IMG/VR virus record: IMGVR_UViG_3300037504_000674
Span: 28,753-92,752 of that record
DNA length: 64,000 bases
Direction: 5' to 3' (one strand)
From: a virus
The notes beneath the pieces were generated by a model that was not told the origin of the DNA, ran no database searches, and was given only the letters and a program-made list of their open reading frames with translations. How positions within the stretch are numbered: the stretch's first letter is position 1; each line of letters begins with the position of its first letter. The translations under genes were made by a program, and so were the position numbers. This document shows, in pieces, positions 44,351 to 60,363 of this stretch.

Positions 44351-44354
44351 GTAG

Positions 44355-44426: not shown

Positions 44427-44472
44427 AACTTGTGCTTCTTGCATCCACAGGACATTATTCTCATTCAGCTCC

Positions 44473-44885: not shown

Positions 44886-44889
44886 ATGG

Positions 44890-44961: not shown

Positions 44962-44962
44962 A

Positions 44963-45033: not shown

Positions 45034-45037
45034 GCTG

Positions 45038-45110
45038 TGCCGCCTCTCGGAATCGAACCGAGGACCCCCGGCTCTTCAGGCCGATGCTCTACCAACTGAG
45101 CTAAAGCGGC
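45038..45110 (-). tRNA. tRNA-Phe (GAA)
   Basis: The anticodon loop is CTGAAGA on a TCGGC/GCCGG stem. The cloverleaf is intact. Confidence 0.9.
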
Positions 45111-45114
45111 GGAG

Positions 45115-45187
45115 CTCCCAGGGCAGGACTCGAACCTGCACACCTCCGGTTAACAGCCGGACACTCTGCCAATTGAGCTACCTGGGA
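45115..45187 (-). tRNA. tRNA-Asn (GUU)
   Basis: The anticodon loop is CTGTTAA. The acceptor is TCCCAGG/CCTGGGA. Confidence 0.9.
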
Positions 45188-45781
45188 TTATGGTCTCACC
45201 ACTTGGCGGTACGGCTGTCGCCAATTGTCCGTGGTGTTTGGCGATATGAATTCTATCGCCCCTTGCCTTCGCTTTCTAGTAACACCTAGCCCAGAGCGCT
45301 TGATTACGTCATCTACGAACAGCCCCGGCTTAGTGATAGCGTGTGTGTATGATAGCGTGTGGACCTGGATGTCCGCTTCGTCTAACCTGACAACAAACCT
45401 GGATATCCGGTCGCATGTTAGCCTGAGCTCCCCCATGAACGGAGCACTTCGGTCGCCAATCCTCCTCTGCGTTACAGAGACAGGGTCCTTGAGTATTGCG
45501 AAGAATATAGGGTTTCTGAGAATGCGGTTAAGCCTTCTCAGGTGAGCATGAGCGCCGACATGCTTAAATCCCCACACGTCGTGGTCAGCGTTACGTCGCT
45601 GCACTAGCGCTTGCAATTCTTCGTCAGAACCCTTGAGAGCCCACCTTATTTCCTGGTCTTCCCAGGACATTCTGAGATAATCATCGCCAACCATCGGGAC
45701 GCCAAGTTGCTCAAATATACCTGTGAGCATCGTGGTGCCCGAATGTGCAAAACCACATACAACTACCGTTTTTTTGTCCAT
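45188..45781 (-). CDS. Sulfotransferase-like protein
   Basis: 197 aa. It opens MDKKTVVVCGFAHSGTTMLTGIFEQLG. The GFAHSGTT segment is the PAPS-binding loop of sulfotransferases. The Arg/Ser segment for the 3'-phosphate (about residues 110-120) is plausible (KDPVSVTQRR). It may sulfate a glycan or protein, complementing the glycosyltransferases. Its ATG lies two bases after the mature 3' end of the initiator tRNA and no ribosome site is visible, so processing of the tRNA would leave an almost leaderless mRNA. Its stop lies against tRNA-Asn. Confidence 0.7.
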   Translation of the reverse strand: MDKKTVVVCGFAHSGTTMLTGIFEQLGVPMVGDDYLRMSWEDQEIRWALKGSDEELQALVQRRNADHDVWGFKHVGAHAHLRRLNRILRNPIFFAILKDPVSVTQRRIGDRSAPFMGELRLTCDRISRFVVRLDEADIQVHTLSYTHAITKPGLFVDDVIKRSGLGVTRKRRQGAIEFISPNTTDNWRQPYRQVVRP

Positions 45782-45783
45782 AG

Positions 45784-45855
45784 TTGCGGGAGCCGGATTT
45801 GAACCGGCGACCTTCGGGTTATGGGCCCGGCGAGCTACCACTGCTCCATCCCGCA
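45784..45855 (-). tRNA. Initiator tRNA-fMet (CAU)
   Basis: The anticodon loop is CCCATAA next to the GGG/CCC pairs that mark bacterial initiators. The TTCAAAT T-loop also matches. The first pair is T-A rather than the usual C-A mismatch. Confidence 0.85.
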
Positions 45856-45856
45856 G

Positions 45857-45928
45857 CAAGTGTGACTGGACTCGAACCAGTATCGCCGGTGTTGGAGACC
45901 GGTGCTTTTCCAGTTAAGCTACACACTC
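45857..45928 (-). tRNA. tRNA-Trp (CCA)
   Basis: The anticodon loop is CTCCAAC on a CCGGT/ACCGG stem. Confidence 0.9.
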
Positions 45929-45932
45929 CCAG

Positions 45933-46005
45933 TGGATGTGGCGGGATTTGAACCCGCGACCTCCTCCGTGCAAGAGAGGCGCGCTCCCATCTGCGCTACA
46001 CACCC
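45933..46005 (-). tRNA. tRNA-Ala (UGC)
   Basis: The anticodon loop is CTTGCAC on a CCTCT/GGAGG stem. The third acceptor pair is G-T, the alanine identity pair. Confidence 0.9.
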
Positions 46006-46016
46006 AAGTTATCAGC

Positions 46017-46167
46017 AGAGAGCGAGGGGCAGGACTCGAACCTGCAACCGCAGCCTGTCAACTGCGTAGGCGCCCAGGAAATCCAAGTGACAGCTTGGAC
46101 GCCTGCGGATACACCTCTCGGCTCACATAGGAGCCTTAGCCTCGCTCTGTGGCAGCCCTCGCTCTCT
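46017..46167 (-). ncRNA. Oversized tRNA-like element, 151 nt
   Basis: A perfect 12-bp inverted repeat (AGAGAGCGAGGG with CCCTCGCTCTCT) closes the element. Its 3' part has a normal T-arm (GCAGG, TTCGAGT, CCTGC) and acceptor strand. The middle holds hairpins GGCTC/GAGCC, CCAAG/CTTGG and CGCAG/CTGCG, but no seven-base anticodon loop on a five-pair stem fits. It may be a tRNA carrying an insertion, a class II tRNA with a rebuilt middle, or a tRNA-mimic. Confidence 0.5.
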
Positions 46168-46179
46168 ACTGACAATCAG

Positions 46180-46250
46180 GGCGGGTGAGGGGGATCGAAC
46201 CCCTATCATTGGCTTGGAAGGCCAAGGCCCTACCGTTGGACTACACCCGC
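46180..46250 (-). tRNA. tRNA-Gly (UCC)
   Basis: The anticodon loop is CTTCCAA on a TTGGC/GCCAA stem. Confidence 0.9.
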
Positions 46251-46253
46251 ACA

Positions 46254-46324
46254 TACGGGCAGCCGGACTTGAACCGGCATCTTCAGCATGGCAAGCTGAC
46301 GTTCTACCGTTGAACTACGCCCGT
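46254..46324 (-). tRNA. tRNA-Gly (GCC)
   Basis: The anticodon loop is TTGCCAT on a TCAGC/GCTGA stem. The acceptor is ACGGGCG/TGCCCGT. Confidence 0.9.
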
Positions 46325-46335
46325 TAAAACCGGTG

Positions 46336-46479
46336 TTAAGCCGATTCGCCATTGAGATAATGCACACGCTCGGCGGCCTCCTCCGGCGTATTCCAGTCGC
46401 TTTCTGGGAACCATTTCCCAGTTGGGTCATAAAACCCGACCGTCCATAGACCCGGCTCAGATCGAATATACACGTACAT
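46336..46479 (-). CDS. Small phage protein, 47 aa
   Basis: The ATG lies six bases after AGGAGG. The sequence contains WTVGFYDPTGKWFPESDW and AAERVHYLNG, a pattern seen in many small phage proteins. It has its own promoter at 46516. Function is unknown. Confidence 0.7.
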   Translation of the reverse strand: MYVYIRSEPGLWTVGFYDPTGKWFPESDWNTPEEAAERVHYLNGESA

Positions 46480-46515
46480 CTATTGCCTCCTTCGCCTCGT
46501 TTGGCATCCTAGTGT

Positions 46516-46543
46516 ATTATATCACGTTGTTGTTAACTATCAA
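46516..46543 (-). promoter_or_regulatory. Promoter within the tRNA region
   Basis: TTGATA (46538-46543), a 16-bp spacer ending in TGA, and TATAAT (46516-46521). It drives the 47-aa gene and the tRNA-Gly to tRNA-Pro block. Confidence 0.75.
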
Positions 46544-46576
46544 CTGACATGCATCACGTCACAAGCGTGACATACG

Positions 46577-47059
46577 TCAAACCTCAAGATATACTTTCCA
46601 ACTCTTGGGTATTCTTCCTCTTGCCACCAGATAGTCAACCCTGGGTGTTTTTGGTTCCCACATGAGCTTCATACCGGCCTCATGTGGGGTGCGGTCTGCT
46701 TTACGCTGATTGCACTCGTAGCATGAGCAAATCGTGTTACCCCATGTGCTCTTGCCGCCGTGCGATACCGGGACCACATGGTCAATCGTTCGGCCCGGCC
46801 TACCGCAGTACCCGCATGTATAATCATCGCGCTTGATCACACCGCGACGTGTCCATCTCGCGTTTCGTCTGGGTACATTTACATAGTGTTTAAGCCGGAT
46901 AACCTCCGGCACATCAAAACAACCGGACACAGTTTTGAAGCTGCGTGCCAGATCGTCGGTTACACCATGCGCAACATTCTTCCAGAGCAGCGTGGCCGCT
47001 TTGCGGTCCGACACCACGCGCAACGGCTCGTAACTTGCATTAAGCAATAGAACTGACAT
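46577..47059 (-). CDS. HNH endonuclease
   Basis: 160 aa. It opens MSVLLLNASYEPLRVV, as in stand-alone bacterial and phage HNH proteins. The nuclease motif is CGYCGRPGRTIDHVVPVSHGG followed by NTICSCYECNQRK, with the DH pair at about residues 92-93. Ribosome site TAGGAGA. It lies between tRNA-Lys and the small-protein promoter. It may be a mobile nuclease or take part in DNA processing. Confidence 0.85.
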   Translation of the reverse strand: MSVLLLNASYEPLRVVSDRKAATLLWKNVAHGVTDDLARSFKTVSGCFDVPEVIRLKHYVNVPRRNARWTRRGVIKRDDYTCGYCGRPGRTIDHVVPVSHGGKSTWGNTICSCYECNQRKADRTPHEAGMKLMWEPKTPRVDYLVARGRIPKSWKVYLEV

Positions 47060-47071
47060 TTTTTCTCCTAG

Positions 47072-47145
47072 TGAGGGTGGCAGGATTTGAACCTGCGGTC
47101 CTTGGCTTAAAAGGCCACTGCTCTACCAGGCTGAGCTACACCCCC
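47072..47145 (-). tRNA. tRNA-Lys (UUU)
   Basis: The anticodon loop is CTTTTAA. The first anticodon-stem pair is a mismatch; the rest of the cloverleaf is intact. Confidence 0.85.
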
Positions 47146-47150
47146 AAACA

Positions 47151-47231
47151 TGGCGATAGAGGGAGTCGAACCCTCATGCTTTCGCGGTGCATTTTAACTG
47201 CCCTGTGTATGCCTGCTTCCACCATATCGCC
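47151..47231 (-). tRNA. tRNA-Leu (UAA), copy 1
   Basis: Class II variable arm (GCGAAAGC). The loop GTTAAAA gives anticodon UAA. The anticodon stem GGGCA/TGCAC has one mismatch, so this copy is less regular than the next. Confidence 0.75.
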
Positions 47232-47235
47232 TTAG

Positions 47236-47317
47236 TCTCGCCGCAGGGAGTCGAACCCTGATAGTCACTAGGACACTGGTTTTAAACCAGCCGCGTAGCC
47301 ATTTCCGCCACGGCGAG
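47236..47317 (-). tRNA. tRNA-Leu (UAA), copy 2
   Basis: The loop TTTAAAA sits on GCTGG/CCAGT. The acceptor CTCGCCG/CGGCGAG is perfect. Long variable arm. Confidence 0.85.
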
Positions 47318-47324
47318 GTGAATC

Positions 47325-48179
47325 TTAACTGCGCTCTTGGCAATGAACCCTTAAGTGTTTCTTTATTGCGTTGTCAGACACGCCAAGTTCTCTTCCCAAA
47401 GCAGAGTAGTTGCTTTCATCAAGTCTTTGTCTAAGTTCTTCGCAGGAGGGCCAATCTATCTTGAAGTTAGCCCGATGCTTTCCGGCGCATGGCTTGCACC
47501 TCGTCGCGTTACATGATATTTTTGCGCCGCAGTCCACACAATACTTCTGCTCTGATCCTCTTTTTATCTGCAAGCCATTTTTTGCCATCAGCTTGTATGC
47601 CCTGTTGTATGTTGCGCCTATGGAGAGACCTACCGAGAGCAACGCCTGCCTAATGCTATCTTCTTCCCTGAGCGCTCTCAACAATTCCTCATCACTAACT
47701 ACAGCATTTGACTTGTTCTTGCCACAATAAGTAGGTGTTTGGGAGTGGCAGTTTGGGCACAAGAATCTTAGGTTCGACAACCTATGATCTCTGCGTCTTC
47801 CATTCACATGATCTAGTTGAAGAACAAGCTCTTCCCCCATCCACTTCCCGTCATTTCCGCAAATATCGCACGCATATGGAATTAGCCCTTCTTTTATAAT
47901 AATTTCTTTGATAGTGTTGCGCGGCGTCTTCGAGCCTTTACAGAACTTTTCGTCTGGCGAGGCTCCTATTCTTTCATCAGAGTATGAGGTTTTCCCAAGC
48001 GCCCACCCCTGCCCAAGAAAGTGATCAGTCTGTATCCCCAAATTTTCTATTCTGTCCCTTACAAGAGCGTGACTCCCGCTGCCCTTTAGTCCAAGCTTCT
48101 TTCTTACAGAAGCATAAGACTCAGATGTTTTACATGCCTCTATCAATTGATCATCTGTCCAACTTCTTCTTCTGCTCAC
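47325..48179 (-). CDS. HNH homing endonuclease with DNA-binding repeats
   Basis: 284 aa. It starts SRRRSWTDDQLIEACKTSESY, the N-terminal helix-turn-helix of a free-standing HNH homing family, and has FLGQGWALGK after it. The HNH motif is LVLQLDHVNGRRRDHRLSNLRFLCPNCHSQ. The C-terminus has another zinc knuckle and helix-turn-helix (ALGRELGVSDNAIKKHLR). The GTG at 48179 follows AGGGGGA. The frame stays open to 48371, but that part overlaps a duplicated segment of the next gene. It is probably a mobile element in the tRNA array. Confidence 0.8.
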   Translation of the reverse strand: MSRRRSWTDDQLIEACKTSESYASVRKKLGLKGSGSHALVRDRIENLGIQTDHFLGQGWALGKTSYSDERIGASPDEKFCKGSKTPRNTIKEIIIKEGLIPYACDICGNDGKWMGEELVLQLDHVNGRRRDHRLSNLRFLCPNCHSQTPTYCGKNKSNAVVSDEELLRALREEDSIRQALLSVGLSIGATYNRAYKLMAKNGLQIKRGSEQKYCVDCGAKISCNATRCKPCAGKHRANFKIDWPSCEELRQRLDESNYSALGRELGVSDNAIKKHLRVHCQERS

Positions 48180-48268
48180 TTTTCCCCCTATTAGGAAACT
48201 AAAGGGGCTATCTTGGTGAATAGGCACCAAGAAGGGCCGTCGCCTTTTCGCCCCGATTGACAACAGTG

Positions 48269-48323
48269 CTGGTGGTTTCCGCATTTCCTTCGACCACCGA
48301 CGCAGCGCATCATTTTCTTCTCT
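48269..48323. repeat. 55-bp direct repeat, left copy
   Basis: 54 of 55 bases match 48668-48722. This copy lies just upstream of the homing nuclease start. The other is inside the next gene. It probably came from a partial duplication when the nuclease inserted. Confidence 0.9.
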
Positions 48324-48352
48324 TAGGTATTTCCATTTCCCGTCATCTGGGC

Positions 48353-48916
48353 TTAGTGCGTAGGAATCCAATGCCCCCAGCTAGTTCTTTTGCGCGGAAG
48401 CCAGTCATTAGTGCGCTGGCGGCGCTCAAGCTCTGCACGCCATCGCTGCCACCCCGATCTCCGATAAACCTTGAGCAGCATGTCCGCGAAAACTGGGTAA
48501 GGGTCATCGGGCCAGCTATAGTATTGCGTTAAGTCTATACTGCGATACGCCTCAGACAGCTCATGCGTCCAGGGGTAGCACATAACCCGCCCAATCAACC
48601 TTTGGCGCAGCCGCTCGTCGGTAAGCCATAGCGGATTTACATCGTTGCTGCTAATCAGGTGCCCGCACTGGTGGTTTCCGCATTTCCTTCGACCACCAAC
48701 GCAGCGCATCATTTTCTTCTCTACGCCCTCGACGAATGGGCACAGCCAGCCATCATGCCATGAAACAGAGAGCGGGCCAAAATCACCCCACAATTTACGT
48801 GCCGACTCGCCAAGAGTGGGGTAGCAGTAGTATTCTTTTGGCTCCATCCACTTCACTTTGCGACCGTAGCGGTTCTTTATCCAAAGCCCTTTACGGGTCC
48901 GGCGCTCCATTTTCAC
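48353..48916 (-). CDS. Hypothetical protein, 187 aa
   Basis: The GTG start lies five bases after GGAGG, which itself lies against the 3' end of tRNA-Arg. The protein is rich in Trp, Arg and Tyr and has a short Cys cluster (RRKCGNHQCGHL) at about residues 79-90. No domain is certain. An internal stretch is repeated outside the gene, at 48269-48323. It may itself be a relic of a nuclease. Confidence 0.55.
   Translation of the reverse strand: MKMERRTRKGLWIKNRYGRKVKWMEPKEYYCYPTLGESARKLWGDFGPLSVSWHDGWLCPFVEGVEKKMMRCVGGRRKCGNHQCGHLISSNDVNPLWLTDERLRQRLIGRVMCYPWTHELSEAYRSIDLTQYYSWPDDPYPVFADMLLKVYRRSGWQRWRAELERRQRTNDWLPRKRTSWGHWIPTH
48668..48722. repeat. 55-bp direct repeat, right copy
   Basis: Internal to the 187-aa gene; the partner of 48269-48323 with one base difference. 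The copies are 399 bp apart. Confidence 0.9.
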
Positions 48917-48929
48917 TTTTGCCTCCAGG

Positions 48930-49002
48930 CTCCCCCGTCAGGACTCGAACCTGAATCACCCACTCCGCAGGCGGGCACTCTATCCAATTGAGCTACAGGG
49001 GA
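48930..49002 (-). tRNA. tRNA-Arg (GCG)
   Basis: The anticodon loop is CTGCGGA on a CCCGC/GTGGG stem. Bacteria usually read CGC/CGU with ACG (inosine), so G34 is unusual and avoids the need for the host deaminase. Confidence 0.8.
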
Positions 49003-49003
49003 A

Positions 49004-49075
49004 TGCGAGCAGGGAGAGTCGAACTCCCGTCTGCGGCTTGAGAGGCCGCTATCCTTCCCGCTAGACGATGCTCGC
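49004..49075 (-). tRNA. tRNA-Glu (CUC)
   Basis: The anticodon loop is CTCTCAA on a GCGGC/GCCGC stem. The acceptor GCGAGCA/TGCTCGC is perfect. Confidence 0.9.
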
Positions 49076-49078
49076 TAG

Positions 49079-49202
49079 TGGAGATGGCCGGAATCGAACC
49101 GGCGTCCGCAATGCGTACATGCTCCTCGCCGCAAGTTTGTTCTCCGCGCTTTTCTCTTGCTAGAAACATGCCTGTAGCACCACGTCTAATCCGATCATCC
49201 CC
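49079..49202 (-). ncRNA. ssrA-like: Miniature tmRNA-like RNA, 124 nt
   Basis: The 5' end (GGGGATGATCGGATTAGACG) matches the tmRNA tRNA-like domain. The 3' end (GGACG, then CCGG-TTCGATT-CCGG, then CATCTCC-A) is the conserved tmRNA T-arm and acceptor. Pair G3-U70 and discriminator A73, the alanine identity elements, are present. Between them only about 75 bases remain, too few for the four pseudoknots and the peptide-tag region of ordinary tmRNA (300-400 nt). One frame could read AENKLAA, but no stop codon follows. It sits two bases from tRNA-Leu. Confidence 0.7.
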
Positions 49203-49204
49203 AA

Positions 49205-49292
49205 TGCGGGCGGGGGGAGTCGAACCCCCACCAAGGTTCAACCTTGTACCTGGCGCCTAAGACCAGAGCATCTGCCATTCTGCCACGCCCGC
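49205..49292 (-). tRNA. tRNA-Leu (UAG)
   Basis: The anticodon loop is CTTAGGC. Long variable arm. A promoter -10 box ends six bases upstream, so transcription should begin at the mature 5' end. Confidence 0.9.
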
Positions 49293-49298
49293 TTGATC

Positions 49299-49326
49299 AT
49301 TATACTGCTTTTGCCGAACTTGTCAA
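49299..49326 (-). promoter_or_regulatory. Promoter for the tRNA array
   Basis: TTGACA (49321-49326), a 16-bp spacer and TATAAT (49299-49304). The next transcribed base is the first base of tRNA-Leu(UAG). TTAAGG lies two bases before the -35 box. Confidence 0.85.
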
Positions 49327-49335
49327 AACCTTAAG

Positions 49336-49359
49336 GGGGAGGGTTTTGACGCCCTCCCC
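49336..49359 (-). terminator. Probable terminator between early genes and tRNA array
   Basis: A perfect eight-base stem, GGGGAGGG with CCCTCCCC, around a seven- or eight-base loop. A T-run is only partial, so efficiency is uncertain. Confidence 0.6.
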
Positions 49360-49368
49360 GCAGTGGCT

Positions 49369-49734
49369 CTACAGCTCTTCAATCATCGCCTGAATCTCTT
49401 CGGGCGACAACTCTTCAAGCTGCTGTTCTTGCTTGCGCTCTAGCACTTCTAGTAACTGCCGCTTCTTGGCGGCACGTGCAGCCTCGTTCTTGGCTTGCTG
49501 CCGCTCTTCCAGCTTGACACCGACAATGTGCTTGATGATGCCGATCTTCAACTGCAAGACATCATCCTGCTTACCCTCAGAAAGAAGGCTGTCTTGTTGC
49601 TGTTCCCTTGCGACTCGATTAAGGTTTTGGTAAATGCTGTCCAGAGCCTCACAGCTCAAGTCCCAAAGGTCCTCTGCGCACAGAGAACCGCGATACTGCC
49701 ACCGTAACTTCAAACGCAGCGCCTCTTCAAACAT
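49369..49734 (-). CDS. Conserved phage coiled-coil protein, 121 aa
   Basis: It starts MFEEALRLKLRWQYRG and has AEDLWDLSCEALD, LQLKIGIIKHIVGVKLEER and a long C-terminal coiled coil. This combination is common in phage genomes next to a larger partner gene, here 49745. Function unknown. The ATG at 49734 follows GGGGG. Confidence 0.7.
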   Translation of the reverse strand: MFEEALRLKLRWQYRGSLCAEDLWDLSCEALDSIYQNLNRVAREQQQDSLLSEGKQDDVLQLKIGIIKHIVGVKLEERQQAKNEAARAAKKRQLLEVLERKQEQQLEELSPEEIQAMIEEL

Positions 49735-49744
49735 TTTGTCCCCC

Positions 49745-51781
49745 TTAGTTGAAAACGACTTTGACAATACGATTACCGTTGATCCTCGCCACAATGTAAT
49801 TATCTCTTGTGGCGCTGAATCCTACGCCGGAAAGTTGCTCGTCATCATCCTCTACCCGCATCTTATTGCCAAGCGCTGCAAAAATGCGCTTGTGCTTCAT
49901 CAATTCTTCTGGAAGATACTCGTTGAAGAAGCCGCTTGGCCTTTCGTCGTTCTTGGTACCAGGAATCATGAATAAGTAGTGCCGGTGCCCAATGTGATTA
50001 TCACCCCAGTAGTTTGGCGAGTAACACACCAACGACACTCGATGGAACCGATTGGTATCCAGGCCCCAGACCTCGCGGCTGCTGTCCGATGTAGGCAGAG
50101 ACTTGATGAAGCGGATACCGCGCTGTCTATCGAACTCGATTTTGGCGACAAGCACCTGCCCCTTGTGCGGTATATCCTTGCGGTATTCAAACTCGAATAC
50201 CTGACCATTATACTCGATCTCCGCAGAAAAGCCAGATCGCCCACCCCGATGCTGATAGTTTTTGACAAACAGCTTATAAACACCGGGTTGCATGAGGCTA
50301 GGGTCAGACCAGGTGATATTTTCTACTGCCACCTGTCTAACCTTTGGGTGAATGATGTCTACGTCAAGAACACCAGAAGACGGATGTGTTTGTCGTTTGT
50401 TGGGAAAGTAGATGTGGTTTCCGTCGGGCTCGATGCAATGCGCGTCATAGTCATTACGGTTGTCAAATTCTTCATTCCATTGCAACGAGAACCTCAGAAC
50501 GCCCTTGACGTTCCCGCCAGCCGCCTTGACCCGGCGCTTCATATCCGAGTCCGCCATGTTACCAGAGTATGCCCAAGTAAATCCATTGCTCCACTTTGTC
50601 AGTGGCTTGCTATCGGTTGCTTGTGGAGCAATCAAAGAGACGAGGTTAGCTGCGTGCCGATTCTCAAGCAGAACCTCGATCTTGGCGGATTCCGGGATGA
50701 CATTGTCGATGAATTCCTGAGCACCTACCGCTGCGACATCACGGAACTTGCGCGGGTTGACAGTTTCTTCATCCCTTAAAACATCGAATACACCCCCGCT
50801 GCCCGCCATGTGCGGCATCGCATCTCGGTCGGCGAACAGCACGTCATTCACGGTAACGTCTCTGAGGTGAGCAAACCTACGCGGCAGAGCGCTCGTGACC
50901 CCCAGCCTCTCCGCATCCTCTTCGGCTTCGTCAACCATCTTGCGTGTATAGATGGCTTTAGGCCGCTTATAGTTATGCGGCGCGACGATGTTCTCGTAAC
51001 GACGCACGGATTCGATAACGTCCTTGCCATCTGAGATGTCAGCGAGCAGGACGCCGATAGAGTGATTGCGTAACCTAGTCAGCGCGCCGCCAGCCTCGGC
51101 GGCCTGCTTCCAACAGAAGTTTGTCTTCTGATTTTCTGGTAGTTCCGAGTATTCGTGTTGCAACACGCGGAACCTACTCAGGAGCCCGCGCCACTCCTCG
51201 CCCTTATACAGATTGCCCTCCTCAATGAGATCGAGGATAGTCTCGATCGCGTAGGGGTCAATCTCTTCTAGCGAGCGTTCAAAGACGTGCCGTGAGTCTC
51301 TGATGGTGGCCTGGAACTCGCTTGCGGTTTGGTGATCTGGGACCACCAAATGATCTGGCAGCTCGACATAGAAGTGGTGCCATGTATGAACATCGCCACT
51401 CTCAAGCATTTCCCGGTTTGCGTTAGTGCCAATCTTCGCCAGCTTAGAGGCAAAGGTGTTGGCCACCGGATTACTCTTGACGTACTCTGATAGGGCATCG
51501 ATGACTGGCTGGTAAACCTCGTCAGCCTCGAAGTCCCACACCGACACAAGTTCGTTATCAACGATGGCGACCACGTCGCCGAACTTCTTGATGAAGTGGC
51601 GGCAGCACGAACAATCAAATGCCCTGCGTTCGCGGTAGATGCCGTTGACGCCTTCCGGGAAGCTGTCTAGGTACAACTCCCAGAGCTGCTCGTGATCTAC
51701 ATCTGTCACGAACAACACAGACTCGGATGACATCGAATCGAAATGCTCTTGGAACAACGCCTTGAATTCTTTGAATTGCAT
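49745..51781 (-). CDS. Large conserved phage protein with YfaP-like C-terminal domain
   Basis: 678 aa. N-terminal FDCSCCRHFIKKFGDVVAI and a helical middle (EEIDPYAIETILDLIEEGNLYKG) are typical of a widespread phage protein with no known role. Residues about 430-560 match a DUF2135/YfaP-like metal-binding beta-sandwich (NDYDAHCIEPDGNHIYF, SGVLDVDII, GVYKLFVKNY). It is often encoded beside the coiled-coil protein, as here. The ATG at 51781 has AAAGGA in front. Confidence 0.7.
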   Translation of the reverse strand: MQFKEFKALFQEHFDSMSSESVLFVTDVDHEQLWELYLDSFPEGVNGIYRERRAFDCSCCRHFIKKFGDVVAIVDNELVSVWDFEADEVYQPVIDALSEYVKSNPVANTFASKLAKIGTNANREMLESGDVHTWHHFYVELPDHLVVPDHQTASEFQATIRDSRHVFERSLEEIDPYAIETILDLIEEGNLYKGEEWRGLLSRFRVLQHEYSELPENQKTNFCWKQAAEAGGALTRLRNHSIGVLLADISDGKDVIESVRRYENIVAPHNYKRPKAIYTRKMVDEAEEDAERLGVTSALPRRFAHLRDVTVNDVLFADRDAMPHMAGSGGVFDVLRDEETVNPRKFRDVAAVGAQEFIDNVIPESAKIEVLLENRHAANLVSLIAPQATDSKPLTKWSNGFTWAYSGNMADSDMKRRVKAAGGNVKGVLRFSLQWNEEFDNRNDYDAHCIEPDGNHIYFPNKRQTHPSSGVLDVDIIHPKVRQVAVENITWSDPSLMQPGVYKLFVKNYQHRGGRSGFSAEIEYNGQVFEFEYRKDIPHKGQVLVAKIEFDRQRGIRFIKSLPTSDSSREVWGLDTNRFHRVSLVCYSPNYWGDNHIGHRHYLFMIPGTKNDERPSGFFNEYLPEELMKHKRIFAALGNKMRVEDDDEQLSGVGFSATRDNYIVARINGNRIVKVVFN

Positions 51782-51818
51782 TGGTTTATCCTTTCGGCTA
51801 TAGAAAAGTTTCCAAATA

Positions 51819-52235
51819 TCACCGCATCTCAGCAAGGGCGTCATACATGGCCGTAACAAGCGTGGGCGCCCACCCGATCGCTAGTCTTTTAGTGTGCCCC
51901 CTCAGCACCCATCGCCCAAGCTCTGCGCTATATCTGAACCAGACATTGTGTCTGGTGAGCAACCGCTCCATCTCGTCTGCCACGAACCGATGCAGAAAAA
52001 CTTCCGCATCGTGGCAATAACTAAACTCCGTGGGTGTATACCACGGGCTTCCGCATAGCGCAAGGGCGTCGTCTATCAACATGTTGGAATACTCAATCGA
52101 TTTTCCATCGACGGCTTTAACGAACAGCGTGTGGTCGTAGTGTCTGAAGTAGCGAACAATGGCGTCAGCGTGTTTGTTGTCCAGGCGTCTCCTTTCCTCT
52201 TCTGTCATTTGATCTTTGTTCAGTTCGCTCAACAT
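51819..52235 (-). CDS. Hypothetical protein, paralogue of 57085
   Basis: 138 aa. It shares a KGKS-type/GKSIEYSNMLIDDALALCGSP segment and a following YCHDAEVFLHRF segment with the protein at 57085-57753. The rest differs. The motif is shared with no family I know. GGAGGATAAAAA precedes the ATG. Confidence 0.65.
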   Translation of the reverse strand: MLSELNKDQMTEEERRRLDNKHADAIVRYFRHYDHTLFVKAVDGKSIEYSNMLIDDALALCGSPWYTPTEFSYCHDAEVFLHRFVADEMERLLTRHNVWFRYSAELGRWVLRGHTKRLAIGWAPTLVTAMYDALAEMR

Positions 52236-52238
52236 TTT

Positions 52239-52469
52239 TTATCCTCCAGTGGTGGTTAGTATCATGGCTTTGTTGACATCATCCTCTTCAGCAAGTGATA
52301 GAACTCGCCTAGCGCACTCCAAGTATTGTTGTTTGGTGACGCCTTGGGCGGACAAGATAATGTGAGAAGGAATGATGGATCGGTTAAGGGATAGAAACTC
52401 TGCTGCACCCCGCGCGCTTCTGCCACGCCGGGCAGTCGCCGCAGCCTGGCGCTGGCTTCGTGGGGTCAC
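52239..52469 (-). CDS. Small basic protein, 76 aa (uncertain)
   Basis: Arg/Ala-rich N-terminus followed by a helical part. The GTG start lacks a clear ribosome site. It fits the gap between neighbours (three bases before, 17 after) and has no better alternative frame. Confidence 0.4.
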   Translation of the reverse strand: MTPRSQRQAAATARRGRSARGAAEFLSLNRSIIPSHIILSAQGVTKQQYLECARRVLSLAEEDDVNKAMILTTTGG

Positions 52470-52486
52470 GGGTCGTGCGCGTCGTT

Positions 52487-52879
52487 TTACTGCTCGTCAT
52501 CGGGTACCTCTAATTTAACCGTCTTCGGCGCAACGTGGTCGCGCCACTCCAACAGCGCCGTGCGATCGTCGTGCTCGCTAACATCTATGCGCTCTTGGAG
52601 AAGGTCGTCGCAGTACGCTTGCACCTCTGCGCGGATTCCGTCAATCTCGTCTGCGCCATGATACTGAATCACCACAGCGCCTAGATCGTGGAGATTGCGT
52701 AGCATAAAAGACGAACAGGAGGCATCAAGCGTAATCGCCGTATAATATCGACCGTGGCGTAATTTACCCCGCCATTCCTCGAACCCGTGAATTGGTCGCG
52801 GTGCGTTAAACACTATTGCGTCTTTTGGTACACCCTCAGGTCGTGGTGAGAATGTGTGGACAATCTCAAATTCTGGCAT
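52487..52879 (-). CDS. Hypothetical protein, 130 aa
   Basis: AGGAGAG site. Alpha/beta with SCSSFMLRNLHDLGAVVIQY and an acidic C-terminus. No recognised motif. It follows tRNA-Arg(UCU) in the same direction. Confidence 0.6.
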   Translation of the reverse strand: MPEFEIVHTFSPRPEGVPKDAIVFNAPRPIHGFEEWRGKLRHGRYYTAITLDASCSSFMLRNLHDLGAVVIQYHGADEIDGIRAEVQAYCDDLLQERIDVSEHDDRTALLEWRDHVAPKTVKLEVPDDEQ

Positions 52880-52912
52880 TGTTCTCTCCTAGTCTAGTTG
52901 AATACACTTCAA

Positions 52913-52986
52913 TGCCCCCACCAGGACTCGAACCTGGAACCCACTAATTAGAAGTTAGTGGCACTATCCACTTGTGCTATGGGGGC
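52913..52986 (-). tRNA. tRNA-Arg (UCU)
   Basis: Stands apart from the main array, 3.6 kb away. The anticodon loop is CTTCTAA on an ACTAA/TTAGT stem. The acceptor GCCCCCA/TGGGGGC is perfect. Confidence 0.9.
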
Positions 52987-54262: not shown

Positions 54263-54490
54263 CTACAAATCATCGACTCTTTCCCTAACAACCGCAAACT
54301 CAACAACCTCAATACATTCTGGTATTGAGGCCCAGAAGCCATTAACTTCATCGTTCCAGCAACTGTGCTCCCACAACATCTCTTGAAGCCCAGGATTTCC
54401 TGAATCATCAAGAGTTTTCACGGTGACAAACTCTCGTTCTCCAAGAATCTGAGCTGCCTTGTCTGCGGAGACCCAAACCCAATCAGCCAT
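54263..54490 (-). CDS. Hypothetical protein, 75 aa
   Basis: The ATG at 54490 lies eight bases from GAGGAGG. It opens MADWVWVSADKAAQILGE. A partial copy of the structured leader RNA lies directly upstream. Function unknown. Confidence 0.6.
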   Translation of the reverse strand: MADWVWVSADKAAQILGEREFVTVKTLDDSGNPGLQEMLWEHSCWNDEVNGFWASIPECIEVVEFAVVRERVDDL

Positions 54491-54504: not shown

Positions 54505-54548
54505 CAGTGGTGGGGGCTTCGCGGGATTGCCGGGATAAGCTCCCGGCG
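54505..54548 (-). promoter_or_regulatory. Leader RNA element, partial copy
   Basis: Has the first hairpin (GCCGGGA/TCCCGGC), the AATCCCGC strand and the beginning of the next stem, then runs straight into the ribosome site. The second half seen in the full copies is missing. Confidence 0.5.
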
Positions 54549-54561
54549 GGCCCTTCCCGCA

Positions 54562-54816
54562 TTATCCTTCTGCGAAGGCCGCAGCTTTTTCAAATGCCTC
54601 CACCTTCAGTTTGTCTTCATCCTCGAACGGCACCGTTTTTTCCCAGAGCGTCTTGTAAGGATCGCTCTTCAGGAAAATTTGTGCCGTGGCCTCCGTGTTC
54701 ACTAGCGTAAACGGAGTCCAGTCCGTGATAAACCGAACGACAACACCCTCTCGCTCGTATCGAAGTTCTAACACGTTGCTGTCCACCTTCTTGAACCCAC
54801 GATTCACCTTATCCAT
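54562..54816 (-). CDS. Hypothetical protein, 84 aa
   Basis: The ATG at 54816 follows AGGGAGG. Beta-rich (VLELRYEREGVVVRFI), with a helical C-terminus. A full copy of the structured leader RNA precedes it. Confidence 0.6.
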   Translation of the reverse strand: MDKVNRGFKKVDSNVLELRYEREGVVVRFITDWTPFTLVNTEATAQIFLKSDPYKTLWEKTVPFEDEDKLKVEAFEKAAAFAEG

Positions 54817-54845
54817 TTCTATTCCTCCCTGTTTAACTAACCTTC

Positions 54846-54935
54846 TCCCCACCACCTGCCCGCTTTTCGGGCTTACCCCGCGCCACCAGTAGTGGGGATT
54901 TGCGGGATTGGCAGTGGTGACGGGATGCCAGCCCG
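54846..54935 (-). promoter_or_regulatory. Leader RNA element, copy 3
   Basis: The long stem TCCCCAC/GTGGGGA encloses GCCCG/CGGGC. CCCGC upstream can pair with GCGGG inside the stem as a pseudoknot. The first hairpin is altered to GGCA/TGCC. Confidence 0.6.
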
Positions 54936-54945
54936 GCCGACAATG

Positions 54946-55932
54946 TCACTCTTCGTCGGACGTCTCGCCGGGTGCCTCGGGCGTCTCGGGCGCTTTCGGC
55001 ACACGCCAGCGGCTCCGCGTCCAGTACCGCCCTCCTCCGCCCGCTTCCGCGAGCGGCAACTCAAAAAATTCCCCAATTGAGTATCCGTGGTTTTCGTTTC
55101 CAAGCGCATCCAGATACTCTGTCAGTATCTGATGTGCCTCAAAGGGGTCGCTTGGTACACCAAATGGCACCTCTAGTAGCCTGCATGCGGGCCCAGCAAC
55201 GTCCTCCCAATTCACGAGGACTTGCCGATGGTCCTTGTGACTATAAACAACGGCCTTACCACCAAGATTGAATATGTAATTCTGGCAACAATGCGCCAGT
55301 ACAACTTTGATTGCCGTCATGCTCGCCTCATTGAGCGACACCTCAGATGACCATCCGTCCCGGCAGCAGCCCCAGCAGCACATCGTTCTTCTCCTTCGTG
55401 TTGTGCCCAGCCCATGGTGGCGCGGGGCCTTGGAGCGGTGCGTGGTATTGTGGGCTGCCGCATACCCCCTGGACGAGAAGCCTGTCCAGGATTTAAACTC
55501 GGACGACAGGAGCTCGCGCTCCTCCTCAGAGCCGCCGTAGGGGCGAATCTCGCCCTCCACGACGAATCCCGCCCCGCTCCGCACGATTTTGCCGACATCC
55601 CCGTCGGCAAAATCGCCGACGGGCATCGCGACAGCGCCGCGACCATCTGGCGGGCCGCCGTTATCATCCGCTGGGTTGCATCCCACAATCTCGATTACAG
55701 CGTCAATATACAAAATTACCAAAATCAGGATGTTGCCGTCTAGGGCCGGGTCATCTTCCGGGTCATTCTCATTTCGATCCCACCCCAGCATGCGCTCAAG
55801 CTCCTTCATGCGCGCAACAAGCGCGCGCCCGCGCTCCGTCGTCGGTTCGCCCTGCTCGGGCAGTTCGCCACGGTGGAACAGCTCGAGCGAGATGTCGCTG
55901 TGCTCCTGCTTCAACTTGGTTTCATTTAACAT
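54946..55932 (-). CDS. Hypothetical protein, 328 aa, possible two-gene fusion
   Basis: Residues about 85-160 (ADDNGGPPDGRGAVAMP, VRSGAGFVVEGEI, WTGFSSRG) match the protein at 59312-59659. A basic, Cys/Trp-rich stretch (about 160-195) looks out of place. From about residue 205 a new domain begins at MTAIKVVLAHCCQNY, with GAGG before that Met. It may therefore be two genes read as one or a sequence-level fusion. Start ATG at 55932 has GGAGG. Confidence 0.55.
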   Translation of the reverse strand: MLNETKLKQEHSDISLELFHRGELPEQGEPTTERGRALVARMKELERMLGWDRNENDPEDDPALDGNILILVILYIDAVIEIVGCNPADDNGGPPDGRGAVAMPVGDFADGDVGKIVRSGAGFVVEGEIRPYGGSEEERELLSSEFKSWTGFSSRGYAAAHNTTHRSKAPRHHGLGTTRRRRTMCCWGCCRDGWSSEVSLNEASMTAIKVVLAHCCQNYIFNLGGKAVVYSHKDHRQVLVNWEDVAGPACRLLEVPFGVPSDPFEAHQILTEYLDALGNENHGYSIGEFFELPLAEAGGGGRYWTRSRWRVPKAPETPEAPGETSDEE

Positions 55933-55952
55933 TTGCTTCCTCCTGTTTAACC

Positions 55953-56246
55953 CTATAACACTTCTATGACAACCCCATCTTCAAAATTACACCGGAAACA
56001 AATCGAGATGCTCTCGCCGGCTTGCGTCGCAAAGCGGAATTCCACTTCGATCGCGTGTCGGCAATGAGCAATAACCCCCCAATCCTCATCCAATTCCATA
56101 ACACCCAGCTCCCTGTGCGCTATGGCACGTGCCCTATGCAACATATTTTCAATCACCGAATCCTCTCTGCTTGCTCGACCTTCTCTCCACGACTTGTGAC
56201 TATCTTGAGTGACTTCTTCGAGTCGCTCTAAAACCTCCGCCTCCAT
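55953..56246 (-). CDS. Hypothetical protein, 97 aa
   Basis: AGGGAGG site. An acidic helical N-terminus is followed by a beta pattern (IEVEFRFATQAGESISICF). It overlaps nothing and starts one base after the upstream stop. Confidence 0.6.
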   Translation of the reverse strand: MEAEVLERLEEVTQDSHKSWREGRASREDSVIENMLHRARAIAHRELGVMELDEDWGVIAHCRHAIEVEFRFATQAGESISICFRCNFEDGVVIEVL

Positions 56247-56549
56247 CTATTCCTCCCTATTTGTTAGACTTTCCTCCCCACTACCGGGGGCACCCCAAAG
56301 CCTTTCCCTTTCCGCTCGTGCCCGTGCCGCCGCCAGCGCCGCCTTGCGCACTAACCATCCGGGTGACTGTAGCCTACTACCGCTGGCGTCAAACCACGCA
56401 GTAGGATCACCGCAAAAGGCTGGCACAAACTCAAACTCAAGCTCAACTGTCATGTCATCTAGGAATACAACTTTCACCATCGGCTCTTCGATTTTGACGA
56501 TGATGTTATACTTGCTTTCCCAAACCTTCTTAGCCTGCGCGGGTGTCAT
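56247..56549 (-). CDS. Hypothetical protein, 100 aa
   Basis: GGAGGATAGGG site. The N-terminal half is beta-rich and acidic (VKVVFLDDMTVELEFEF). The C-terminal half is an Ala/Arg helix. No motif recognised. Confidence 0.6.
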   Translation of the reverse strand: MTPAQAKKVWESKYNIIVKIEEPMVKVVFLDDMTVELEFEFVPAFCGDPTAWFDASGSRLQSPGWLVRKAALAAARARAERERLWGAPGSGEESLTNREE

Positions 56550-56552
56550 ACC

Positions 56553-57092
56553 CTATCCTCCGCAGCCCTCGCAGGCTGGGCTTCCGAAGAAGTCAGTCCC
56601 CGAGGCCGACATCCCGCAATAATGGCATACGGGATCGGCCTCGTCTACGGGGGCCTCGAACCGCTTCGCCCATCGTCGGGCCTGCTCATGAACGTCTCCG
56701 GTTGCTTTAAAAGCAAACTCGCAATCACCATTTCCCATACTCAGGTAAACAGCACTGCTCTCCGACACAGAGAGTAGATACCTATCACCTATATAAACCA
56801 CCCTAAGTATCTCTCGGCGGCCTCCCGTGCCGAACGAGGGCTTGTACCACGTCGCGCCTACGCGATTCAGCGCTTTGGCGGACTCGTAATCAACCGCGTC
56901 AACCCTGCTCAGATACTCTTCCTGAGCACCATTCTCACGGTCGATTGCAGCTTTTGCGTCCTCAATGGTCTCGAATCCGTAACCGGCGGTGGCCTGATAC
57001 GGCTTGCCGCCAAGACGTCGATTTAAATACGAGGCACTGAATTTGCCATCCTGGTTAACTCTAATTACGCCATCGTGATAATGCTTATTCAT
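56553..57092 (-). CDS. Hypothetical protein with C-terminal zinc knuckle
   Basis: 179 aa. The N-terminus (VNQDGKFSASY, GYGFETIEDAKAAID) resembles the small AP2-like DNA-binding domain of phage integrases. The C-terminus has CHYCG and CEGCG as a zinc site. The combination suggests nucleic-acid binding. It overlaps the next gene upstream by eight bases. Confidence 0.6.
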   Translation of the reverse strand: MNKHYHDGVIRVNQDGKFSASYLNRRLGGKPYQATAGYGFETIEDAKAAIDRENGAQEEYLSRVDAVDYESAKALNRVGATWYKPSFGTGGRREILRVVYIGDRYLLSVSESSAVYLSMGNGDCEFAFKATGDVHEQARRWAKRFEAPVDEADPVCHYCGMSASGTDFFGSPACEGCGG

Positions 57093-57753
57093 TGCTCTTC
57101 TCCTTGGTTTGCATCACCTTAAAATGATCGGACAAGTATAACTCGTACAGGTGCTCCGCCTCCGACAGTGCATCATCGGTGGCGCGGACGCCGTCCTCCA
57201 ACACCTCGAACTGGTCATCAAGCTCGGTTTGCTGTAGGAAATACACAAGGTCATCGACAGTTGCGAAGTGTGTATCCTCCTCCCATCGAGCTCCATACGG
57301 GAGGTGTCTCACCACCCATCCTAATGCGTCATCGCGGATGCATTCGATACCCGCGACGATAGCGTGGAACTGGTTGGAAGCGCCGCCTTCGACCAGAATC
57401 TCCCCGTCTTTCAGCACACGGAACGAATGATCCCGTTCCGTGTAATCAAGGACGTAGGGCCCTAGCGCCAGGGCGTCCTTGAGTTCTGGCTTGATGAACT
57501 CAAACAGAAACTCACAGGCTTCGTCGCAGTACCTGAAATTTGTGAGCTGGAAAAATGGGGAACCGACTAACGCAATACTATCATCAAGTAACATGTTGGC
57601 GTACTTCGACGATTTTCCTTTGGTTGCTCGCTTGAACAGATCGTCGTTGTAACGCTCGTTATATTTCCGCATAGCCGCGAGGTCTGTGGTATTGACTTCA
57701 GCTTTCGCCGCCTCGTTCATCTTCGAGTATTTTTTGTGTATATCGGAAAACAT
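57085..57753 (-). CDS. Hypothetical protein, paralogue of 51819
   Basis: 222 aa. Residues about 45-95 (KGKSSKYANMLLDDSIALVGSP, YCDEACEFLFEFI) are shared with the 138-aa protein at 51819. The C-terminal 90 residues are extra. Acidic overall. AAAGGAG site. Duplication within one genome suggests a useful early function. Confidence 0.65.
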   Translation of the reverse strand: MFSDIHKKYSKMNEAAKAEVNTTDLAAMRKYNERYNDDLFKRATKGKSSKYANMLLDDSIALVGSPFFQLTNFRYCDEACEFLFEFIKPELKDALALGPYVLDYTERDHSFRVLKDGEILVEGGASNQFHAIVAGIECIRDDALGWVVRHLPYGARWEEDTHFATVDDLVYFLQQTELDDQFEVLEDGVRATDDALSEAEHLYELYLSDHFKVMQTKEKSNE

Positions 57754-57757
57754 TTTT

Positions 57758-58153
57758 TCACTCCTTTAGCCACAGGTAGCCCAGTTCATCTCGGTCGAAC
57801 GTGCTATTGCAAGCACGCTCAAACAGACGCACATTGTCTTGAGCAGAGTGGGTCGGCCTAAACCAGATTTGCACAACCCGCTCGGATGAGATAATCTCAT
57901 CCCGCAACTCAAGCCCAACTCTCCTGAGCTCCGGGACAAGCGCGTCCATGATTTCGCTGGCGTACTCCTCTTCGTCTTTTCGCCAGCCGAGCGACACTGC
58001 GAGGGATGGATAAACCGCCCCCGACTGGTGTTTGCTAACGTATGCAAACACTACGTCGCCGCCCTCGATTGGCCCACCACGGGGCGCCTCAGTGGTGGTG
58101 ACCCATTCTTCTTTACCCCGCATAACGGGGCCGACCATTTTCACCTTAGTCAT
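57758..58153 (-). CDS. Hypothetical protein, 131 aa
   Basis: The ATG at 58153 lies eight bases after GGAGG and four after the FtsK-like stop. Alpha/beta; no motif recognised. Confidence 0.6.
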   Translation of the reverse strand: MTKVKMVGPVMRGKEEWVTTTEAPRGGPIEGGDVVFAYVSKHQSGAVYPSLAVSLGWRKDEEEYASEIMDALVPELRRVGLELRDEIISSERVVQIWFRPTHSAQDNVRLFERACNSTFDRDELGYLWLKE

Positions 58154-58157
58154 CTTA

Positions 58158-59312
58158 TTATCCTCCAAATAACCTTGATAGCCAGCCCCGCCGTTTGGGC
58201 GGCTCAACAACAGCCCATTGGCGGCTTTTCCCTTGCACATACTCATGAACTTCGTCATCGCTGACGAAGCTCCCTTGGAATCGCACCGACCGACCGGGGA
58301 CCGACAGAATCCCATCACCCCGCCCGGCCAACTTCTCCGCACCCGCGCTATCTAATACCACGCGGGAATTCACGGCAGACGCCATGGTGAAAGCCACGCG
58401 CGCCGGGAAGTTAGCTTTCACGACGCTATTCACAACGTCCGCTGTTGGATATTGGGTCGCCAAAATAATATGCAACCCTGCGGCCCTGCCCTTCTGAGCA
58501 ATGAGCGTCAACTGACGCTCAATCTCTTTTCCTCTATCGCTCATGACGAGATCGGCATACTCGTCAATCACAATAACGACATCTTGGTCGCCGCTCAGGC
58601 TAATATCTTTGCGGCGACCGCACACTTCAAATTTCAGTTTAATACCTCCGGAGGTGAGTTGCTTGAAGTCCCTCACGCCCTCCTGGGCCATGGCCTGGTA
58701 GCGGTGCTCCATGACCGCTACCAGGATTTTGATTGCCGCCAGCGCCTCAGGGGGACTACGGAACACCATCCCGCCGCTATGCGGGGCTGACACGAACGGC
58801 GTCAGCTCAACACGCTTTGGGTCAATCAGGAATAGGCTCAGGTCTTCTGGCGAATAATCGCGCACCAGCGAACACAACATAGCGTTGATGCATACGCTCT
58901 TGCCGGAACCCGTTTGACCGGCAATCAGAACGTGCGGAGAGATACTATCTCTCAAATTCAACGCGGCCTCTTTACCCTTTACTGTCTCCCCAAACCGGCA
59001 CCACAGGCCGTCTCCGGCCTGGCTGTTGGGCAGCGATACATTCTTGCTCGACTTCTTCGGGACCTCAATCCAGATTTCCCCATCATCCACCTTGAGCGTC
59101 AATCCTCCAACGCCCAGGGCGACACCCACGTCTGTGAGACTTGATTTAATTTGCCTCACAGTCAAATAATCTTTTCTCTCGCGCCCGGTTGGCGTATAGC
59201 GCCTTCCGGGCTCAACTCGGAATCGTGTAAGCTGAGGTGCCTCGACAACCTCAACCACACTAATTTCCTTGTTGAATCTGCTGTACGCCCCCTCAATGTC
59301 GTTTTTATCCAT
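58158..59312 (-). CDS. FtsK/SpoIIIE-family DNA translocase ATPase
   Basis: 384 aa. An N-terminal beta domain precedes the motor: Walker A GQTGSGKSV near residues 132-140, LFLIDPKRVEL, VVIVIDEYADL (Walker B) and HIILATQYPTADVV, all hallmarks of the family. No membrane segments and no C-terminal gamma domain are present. It therefore resembles a soluble motor. It might move phage or plasmid-like DNA, or clear proteins from it. The ATG overlaps the upstream TGA. Confidence 0.9.
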   Translation of the reverse strand: MDKNDIEGAYSRFNKEISVVEVVEAPQLTRFRVEPGRRYTPTGRERKDYLTVRQIKSSLTDVGVALGVGGLTLKVDDGEIWIEVPKKSSKNVSLPNSQAGDGLWCRFGETVKGKEAALNLRDSISPHVLIAGQTGSGKSVCINAMLCSLVRDYSPEDLSLFLIDPKRVELTPFVSAPHSGGMVFRSPPEALAAIKILVAVMEHRYQAMAQEGVRDFKQLTSGGIKLKFEVCGRRKDISLSGDQDVVIVIDEYADLVMSDRGKEIERQLTLIAQKGRAAGLHIILATQYPTADVVNSVVKANFPARVAFTMASAVNSRVVLDSAGAEKLAGRGDGILSVPGRSVRFQGSFVSDDEVHEYVQGKSRQWAVVEPPKRRGWLSRLFGG

Positions 59313-59659
59313 CACTCCTCCAGGGGGTTAGTCTGGCCGTAGGCCTCCCCTCTTGAGGAGAAGCCGGCCCACCCCAGTGGATATCGCTCCTCCAGGAGGA
59401 CCCTCTCCGAACCCGTACCATCATAACCCTCAATGATATCACCCTGCACCACTAGCAGGGCGCCCTCGCGGACCAACTCTTTGACCGCGAACGGATCAAA
59501 CTCATCTAGGGGCGCGATCCACGCCGTGCCGTCTGGCGGGGCTCCGTTATCGTCTGATAGGATTCGGCCCTGCCCGCTCCGAATCTCATTTAGGCGCTCG
59601 AACACTTCGTCTTGATTAAAACCGCTTGCAACTTTAACAAGTAATTCTTCCCTAATCAT
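59312..59659 (-). CDS. Hypothetical protein, paralogue domain of 54946
   Basis: 115 aa. DDNGAPPDGTAWIAPL, VREGALLVVQGDI and WAGFSSRGEAYG are shared with the 328-aa protein. It sits between a full copy of the leader RNA and the FtsK-like gene. The ATG at 59659 follows GGAGG. Confidence 0.65.
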   Translation of the reverse strand: MIREELLVKVASGFNQDEVFERLNEIRSGQGRILSDDNGAPPDGTAWIAPLDEFDPFAVKELVREGALLVVQGDIIEGYDGTGSERVLLEERYPLGWAGFSSRGEAYGQTNPLEE

Positions 59660-59681
59660 TTTTTTCCTCCGTTTAGTTTTC

Positions 59682-59767
59682 TCGCTACCCCCTGCTCCCA
59701 CTTCGGGAGCTTACCCCGCACCACCAGGGATAGCGAACCTGCGGGATTGCCGGGATGGGCTCCCGGC
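59682..59767 (-). promoter_or_regulatory. Leader RNA element, copy 2
   Basis: GCCGGGA/TCCCGGC forms the first hairpin. TCGCTA/TAGCGA closes the long stem around GCTCCC/GGGAGC. CCCGCA can pair with TGCGGG as a pseudoknot. It ends 22 bases before the ATG of the downstream gene. Confidence 0.65.
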
Positions 59768-59774
59768 GGGCCTG

Positions 59775-60248
59775 CTAGTTCACCCACTCAATGCGGTCAA
59801 ACTCAAACCGCATTGGGGGCTCGACTGAAATTTCAACATATCCCGCACGCTTTTCATCAATCCTAGCACGCGGATTTGCGAACCCGACAGCACCGGCAAC
59901 ATCAGCTTCAAACATGTTGCCGTCAGAATACGCGAATTCCCGCTTCTGCGTTTCCGGGCGTTCGCCAGGAACGCTATACACAAACCCAATACGCGGGAGT
60001 GCGACGCGCCCCAGACACGCCAGGCCCCACATCGCCTGCGCCACCATCGGCGGCGCGGCTTGAAAAATGACGTGAGTAAATTCACTTGCGCTGTCGAAAA
60101 TGAGGTTTGTCACGTCATCCGCATCTTTGAATGTTGGGTTGATATTCTTGAATTTGACTCCATCGCCGCCAACGTACTCGGAGTACTCACCTTCCGAGTA
60201 CGGGTGACGACCCACCACCAATACATGCGCGTCTGTATGCGCCTTCAT
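59775..60248 (-). CDS. Hypothetical protein, Rossmann-like, 157 aa
   Basis: HVLVVGRHPYSEGEY and FTHVIFQAAPPMVAQAMWGLACLG suggest an alpha/beta sheet fold. No catalytic motif was recognised. Directly downstream of a full leader RNA copy. Confidence 0.55.
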   Translation of the reverse strand: MKAHTDAHVLVVGRHPYSEGEYSEYVGGDGVKFKNINPTFKDADDVTNLIFDSASEFTHVIFQAAPPMVAQAMWGLACLGRVALPRIGFVYSVPGERPETQKREFAYSDGNMFEADVAGAVGFANPRARIDEKRAGYVEISVEPPMRFEFDRIEWVN

Positions 60249-60277
60249 CTTTTTCCTCCTGTTTGATTAACCCTTTT

Positions 60278-60363
60278 TCCCCACCACCTGCTCCCGCCTC
60301 GGGAGCTTACCCGGCACCGCCAGCGGTGGGGATTTTGCCGGATTGCCAGGATGGGCTCCTGGC
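60278..60363 (-). promoter_or_regulatory. Leader RNA element, copy 1
   Basis: GCCAGGA/TCCTGGC hairpin. TCCCCACC/GGTGGGGA closes the long stem around GCTCCC/GGGAGC. CCGGCA can pair with TGCCGG. The pairs differ in sequence from copy 2 (CCCGCA/TGCGGG), so the pairing is supported by covariation. Confidence 0.65.

Follow-up and report, generated by a model that had tools for sequence, protein, structure and literature searches.

A previously uncatalogued family of phage cis-acting pseudoknot RNAs tied to the downstream gene

Three full copies of a pseudoknotted RNA element were found in the window, the stretch of 64,000 nucleotides that we analysed as part of a 92.7 kb virus record, and ten further virus contigs contain 15 additional distinct copies, which brings the total to 18 full members in 11 contigs. 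We regard them as a real and previously uncatalogued family of cis-acting pseudoknots of phages, tied to the gene that follows them. Comparison among the members strongly supports a selected pseudoknotted RNA fold. The best single reading of the family, which we hold tentatively, is that of a riboswitch-like cis-regulatory RNA and a candidate ligand sensor.

Results

Copies in the window

All the genes around the copies lie on the minus strand, and the RNA is therefore to be read on that strand (Table 1). The three full copies and the partial one that had been listed in the initial annotation are indeed present there. A pattern search of the whole 92.7 kb record found the core motif three times, at the three full copies, and the reversed core pattern used as a control gave no match in the record. 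From 5' to 3', each full copy in the window has an upstream hairpin (H1), one A, the 5' strand of helix P1 (AUCCNGNN), 2-4 nt, the 5' strand of P2, CUGGYGG, the 3' strand of P1 (NNCNGGGU), AA, the P4 hairpin, AGG and the 3' strand of P2, which is followed by the Shine-Dalgarno sequence and the start codon. Two of the full copies are 81% identical over 96 nt. The truncated copy is without the core and the 3' half and runs into the next ribosome site; it is 94% identical to W2 over 32 nt and scored 15.1 bits with a covariance model (G000:83230-83282).

Table 1. Pseudoknot elements and neighbouring features in the window
Feature	Position	Strand	Parts or description
W1, full copy	60278..60363	-	H1 60345-60363; P1 5' strand 60336-60343; P2 5' strand 60324-60332; CUGGCGG 60317-60323; P1 3' strand 60309-60316; AA 60307-60308; P4 60290-60306; AGG 60287-60289; P2 3' strand 60278-60286
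W2, full copy	59682..59767	-	H1 59749-59767; P1 5' strand 59740-59747; CUGGUGG 59721-59727; P1 3' strand 59713-59720; AA 59711-59712; P4 59694-59710; AGG 59691-59693; P2 3' strand 59682-59690
W3, full copy	54846..54931	-	H1 54910-54931; P1 5' strand from 54908; CUGGUGG 54883-54889; P1 3' strand 54875-54882; AA 54873-54874; P4 54858-54872; AGG 54855-54857; P2 3' strand 54846-54854
Truncated copy	54505..54547	-	H1 54529-54547; P1 5' strand; P2 5'-like stretch
Gene after W1	59775..60248	-	157 aa; ribosome site ~60255-60260
Gene after W2	59312..59659	-	115 aa; ribosome site ~59666-59670
Gene after W3	54562..54816	-	84 aa; ribosome site ~54824-54829
Gene after truncated copy	54263..54490	-	~75 aa counted from ATG
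Stretch like the W3 3' end	56247..56300	-	perhaps a remnant of a deleted copy
Gene upstream of W3	54946..55932	-	328 aa
FtsK/SpoIIIE-like gene	58158..59315	-	translocase-like
tRNA array	43253..52986	-	29 tRNA genes (ARAGORN)
tmRNA match	49076..49202	-	inside the tRNA array; 127 nt, 68.6 bits (Rfam)

Several other features of this region were observed. Similarity to the 3' end of W3, from the P2 3' strand to the ribosome site, was seen in one stretch (GGTAGTGGGGAG...AAATAGGGAGGAATAG), which is perhaps what is left of a deleted copy, now within the end of a coding frame. The 328-aa protein contains a part homologous to the protein encoded after W2 (44% over 78 aa); no pseudoknot element stands in front of this longer paralogue. 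Between the element copies lies an FtsK/SpoIIIE-like translocase gene, and among cultured phages its best relatives (37% identity) are FtsK-like genes found in large mycobacteriophages. The large tRNA array contains an Rfam tmRNA match that spans the full model in only 127 nt; its ends are tmRNA-like and there is little space for the tag and pseudoknot domains. ARAGORN did not call this tmRNA, and it was absent from an Rfam rescan of the short stretch.

Members of the family

The other members came from core-pattern scans of IMG/VR and from a covariance model of P1 and P4 (R1). They are eight loci (L009, L015, L017, L022, L023, L152, L154 and L185), three copies in a 333 kb phage (record G006; J1 = L134, J2 = L131, J3 = L140) and four in a 55.8 kb phage (K1-K4; L307, L311, L312 and L313). 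Two further contigs have an identical copy (L020 to that of L017, L148 to that of L140). Besides the window phage, the carriers are about ten phages that are mostly unrelated, and in three phages several copies stand ahead of different genes. R1 was trained on seven sequences and recovered J2, J3 and K2-K4, which were unseen in training, at E values of 1e-12 to 1e-6. At 30.3 bits, K4 lay close to the chance ceiling of 29.7 bits. We nevertheless counted it as a member, since none of its parts is missing or out of order, it sits where the element is expected in the genome, and its phage contains three sister copies. A second model, of P2 and P4 (R2), was built from all 18 members, scored them at 50-73 bits and found no additional full copy on the carrier contigs. 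The pattern scans and the covariance model R1, a kind of search that the initial annotation had proposed, brought further members in other phages.

Searches elsewhere were negative within their scope. R1 was run over 350 genomes from a single bacterial phylum, to which a Caldilineaceae MAG belongs, and gave two weak, chance-like matches of 29.7 and 27.2 bits, which is weak evidence of absence because only 14 candidates were scored per genome. The core pattern matched 59 times over 84,980 bacterial and archaeal genomes, and filtering by structure followed by inspection left no match with the full structure. Four elements used as BLASTN queries found nothing, or fragmentary chance matches, among 50,697 phage records, and among the matches listed for a very loose viral pattern none was new beyond L017, L148 and L152. 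No Rfam 15 family matched the pseudoknot elements in the window at the gathering threshold, in the window region at E values up to 5 or in ten member loci at E values up to 3, which agrees with the earlier remark that no known riboswitch class was recognised. A literature search, with most subscription papers outside its reach, found no description of the RNA; "uncatalogued" is a firmer term for it than "unpublished".

Fold, covariation and conserved core

The fold common to the family is the upstream hairpin H1 followed by an H-type pseudoknot of P1 (about 8 bp) and P2 (8-10 bp), with the P4 hairpin inside it. In each of P1, P2 and P4, the partner strand of the same member was better than all 20,000 permutations in which strands were swapped between members. 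In the alignment of the 18 members, 88.6% of the cells can pair, compared to 66.5% in shuffles, and 86 cells, compared to 25, were changed on both sides. The covariation score was 0.570, against 0.174 in shuffles and at most 0.135 in slid controls. The strands of the window copies named in the initial annotation do covary, and over the 18 members the signal lies far above both controls. Because the alignment was fitted to the P1 and P4 model, with P2 outside it, P2 and the alignment-free permutation test the fold more cleanly, and both were decisive. Single copies folded alone were modestly better than shuffles (z of -1.2 to -2.9), and the case is therefore carried by the comparison among copies.

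About 20 bases are nearly invariant: A-AUCC-N-G in the P1 5' strand, CUNGNGG, C-N-GGGUAAG and C-AGG. In P1, pairs 6-40, 7-39 and 9-37 are invariant and pair 8-38 between them occurs as three pair types; pair 5-41 is U-G in 15 members, C-A in two and C-G in one. Such invariance around a freely varying pair, together with the near-invariant unpaired bases at the junction, suggests that bases make contacts beyond pairing. CUNGNGG, AA, the AUCC/GGGU end of P1 and CAGG make up the near-invariant core, which surrounds the junction. H1 can be drawn in nearly all members, most weakly in L015, and its loop is not conserved.

Position between genes and link to the downstream gene

In 17 of the 18 members an ORF ends with a stop codon 27-68 nt before P1, just ahead of H1, and in all members the next ORF downstream has a ribosome site of its own. 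The element is thus intercistronic and not an operon leader. The window copies had been described as leaders that lie between genes, end just before ribosome sites and precede early genes. They do stand directly after the upstream stop codon, and P2 ends 11-17 nt ahead of the Shine-Dalgarno sequence in W1-W3. The word leader is imprecise for elements in this intercistronic setting, and promoter-like sites in the region, like terminator-like ones, were no commoner than chance. Nothing in the analysis supports calling the genes early. Across the family the distance to the ribosome site ranges from 2 to over 60 nt. P2 holds the ribosome site in no member, and predicted pairing that would mask this site was inconsistent when compared among members. 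Pairing of the conserved AUCC strand with the Shine-Dalgarno sequence was considered as a general switch and rejected, as it is seen in a few members and inconsistently.

By gene comparison, the element is linked to the downstream gene and not to the upstream one. Four members (L015, L017, L023 and L185) have homologous downstream genes and non-homologous upstream neighbours, and all five contigs returned by an IMG/VR profile search with the shared downstream gene carry the element. The shared protein has no match in cultured phages. In four phages (L340, L342, L360 and L366) a second conserved gene, of ~146-188 aa and with a helix-turn-helix-like segment, comes after the element-linked gene, and the two form a conserved gene pair. 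In the 55.8 kb phage (L314, G011:15000-30000), two of the four copies are ahead of mutually homologous DUF6197 genes. The gene after J3, in the jumbo phage, is weakly phosphoribosyltransferase-like (PF00156, 24.5 bits, below the Pfam cut-off), and this copy is conserved in a second contig, G008, a close relative of G006. Almost all of the downstream genes are functionally unassigned, and as a set they give no hint of a ligand.

Discussion

The general features of a riboswitch are partly present here, in that a conserved structured RNA lies upstream of, and is linked to, a candidate target gene; an expression platform coupled to the fold, either a terminator or masking of the ribosome site, was not seen. 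H-type pseudoknot riboswitches place the ribosome site in P2. The family resembles the preQ1-II type in its two crossing helices, the hairpin inserted in the last loop, the conserved core and the position upstream of a ribosome site. However, P2 here is without the Shine-Dalgarno sequence, the conserved sequences differ, the element is between genes and Rfam gave no match. That phages can carry riboswitches has a precedent in the glutamine riboswitches, and like the Downstream-peptide RNAs our element stands ahead of small genes without known function (PMC2864571, PMC9004378). It differs from the glnA and Downstream-peptide RNAs in its conserved core, is without a match to the Rfam models, and was found only in phage contigs, between genes. 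The manA and wcaG RNA motifs of cyanophages are likewise structured candidate cis-regulatory RNAs carried by phages (PMC2864571); those precede metabolic genes, whereas our element precedes uncharacterised phage genes and matches no Rfam family.

The carrier contigs range in GC from 0.37 to 0.63 and most pairs of carriers have zero to six detectable ORFs in common. BLASTP found no protein family common to all carriers, a comparison in which contigs may be incomplete and remote homologues missed, and this makes a cognate protein encoded by the phages unlikely. A partner supplied by the cell, whether a small molecule, a protein or the ribosome, fits the data better. An RNA conserved across phages with so few common proteins is likely to read, or make use of, something that infected cells have in common. 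The suggestion in the initial annotation that the element may sense a ligand or bind a phage protein is thus weakened in its second part. A rather unlikely alternative to ligand sensing is that the pseudoknot is a site for a host or phage protein or for the ribosome, repressing or boosting downstream translation. Its place between genes just upstream of the ribosome site would suit this, as would the multiple copies before different genes of one phage, which recall the operator of a common regulator. With no protein found by BLASTP to be common to the carriers, however, only a conserved host factor could serve as a protein partner.

The order of the helices, P1-P2-P1'-P4-P2', each of P1, P2 and P4 being supported by covariation, is that of HDV-like ribozymes, and their theta group is also carried by phages and lies between genes (PMC10879173). 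Membership in this class was the first idea and was rejected mainly because the P3 stem with L3 and P1.1 are absent. Only the 7-nt CUNGNGG, with no CC in the loop, lies between P2 and the P1 3' strand, and the inner P2 pairs (24-85, 25-84 and 26-83) covary as P2. The element moreover has the extra hairpin H1 abutting P1, is not at tRNA 3' ends and matches no Rfam ribozyme family. A new self-cleaving ribozyme, with a cut close to the H1/P1 boundary that would separate genes of the polycistronic transcript, is improbable on this evidence. According to the theta-ribozyme paper, it is essential that J4/2 begins with a C (PMC10879173), and J4/2 as drawn is AGG in 18 of 18 members. The one reservation concerns the invariant C79. 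This base, which is drawn as the last base of P4, directly precedes this AGG at the P4/P2 junction and could be read as part of J4/2 if the C79-G45 pair does not form. The stable H1 and pseudoknot in every intercistronic gap might instead block exonucleases mechanically and so shield one side of the transcript, as xrRNA or REP/BIME elements do. We consider this slightly less probable still, since the element goes with the downstream gene, which makes 3' protection of the upstream gene unlikely, and since plain stem-loops are enough for such protection, yet conservation extends to about 20 bases of the core. That the elements are ordinary terminators, or GC-rich hairpins that arose by chance, is very improbable. 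GC-rich hairpins do lie between genes and the single-copy folding scores are modest, but the full window copies have neither a U-run nor a terminator-like site on the minus strand, and covariation and a conserved core extend across the eleven contigs. The initial annotation had allowed that copies and significant covariation might fail to appear elsewhere, or that the elements act only as terminators; the further copies, their covariation and the lack of any terminator overlapping the elements speak against both.

We therefore rank riboswitch-like control ahead of a protein or ribosome site, a new ribozyme and a nuclease barrier, in that order. The support for riboswitch-like control comes from the covariation of three helices, the near-invariant unpaired bases at the junction, the invariant P1 pairs, the linkage to the downstream gene, the several copies ahead of different genes in three phages and the ribosome site downstream of every member, and the lack of a common protein across carriers of such different GC favours a partner from the cell. 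Against it count the lack of a consistent expression platform, the absence of any hint of a ligand among the downstream genes, and the invariant core itself, which is just as compatible with a protein site or a ribozyme. After the upstream stop codon, the mRNA can fold H1 and then the H-type pseudoknot with the inserted P4, and the core would be a putative aptamer for a partner supplied by all host cells; a small molecule or an ion is the most likely one. Within a polycistronic transcript, folding or ligand binding may then alter the translation of no gene but the downstream one. As there is no consistent way to hide the ribosome site, we infer the mode of control. By such a mechanism one signal could set several phage genes.

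A further proposal, which we consider possible but somewhat doubtful, is that the family is a phage-specific aptamer class by which unrelated phages would sense one common signal of the host cell and adjust the translation of several genes in their polycistronic messages. Riboswitches are said to be rare in phages (PMC9004378), and such a class, if real, would be a multi-gene riboswitch regulon in viruses. The eighteen aligned members and the two covariance models make the RNA directly testable. To identify its partner would be to learn what phages watch for, or exploit, in the course of an infection, and would open a way into a set of functionally unassigned genes.
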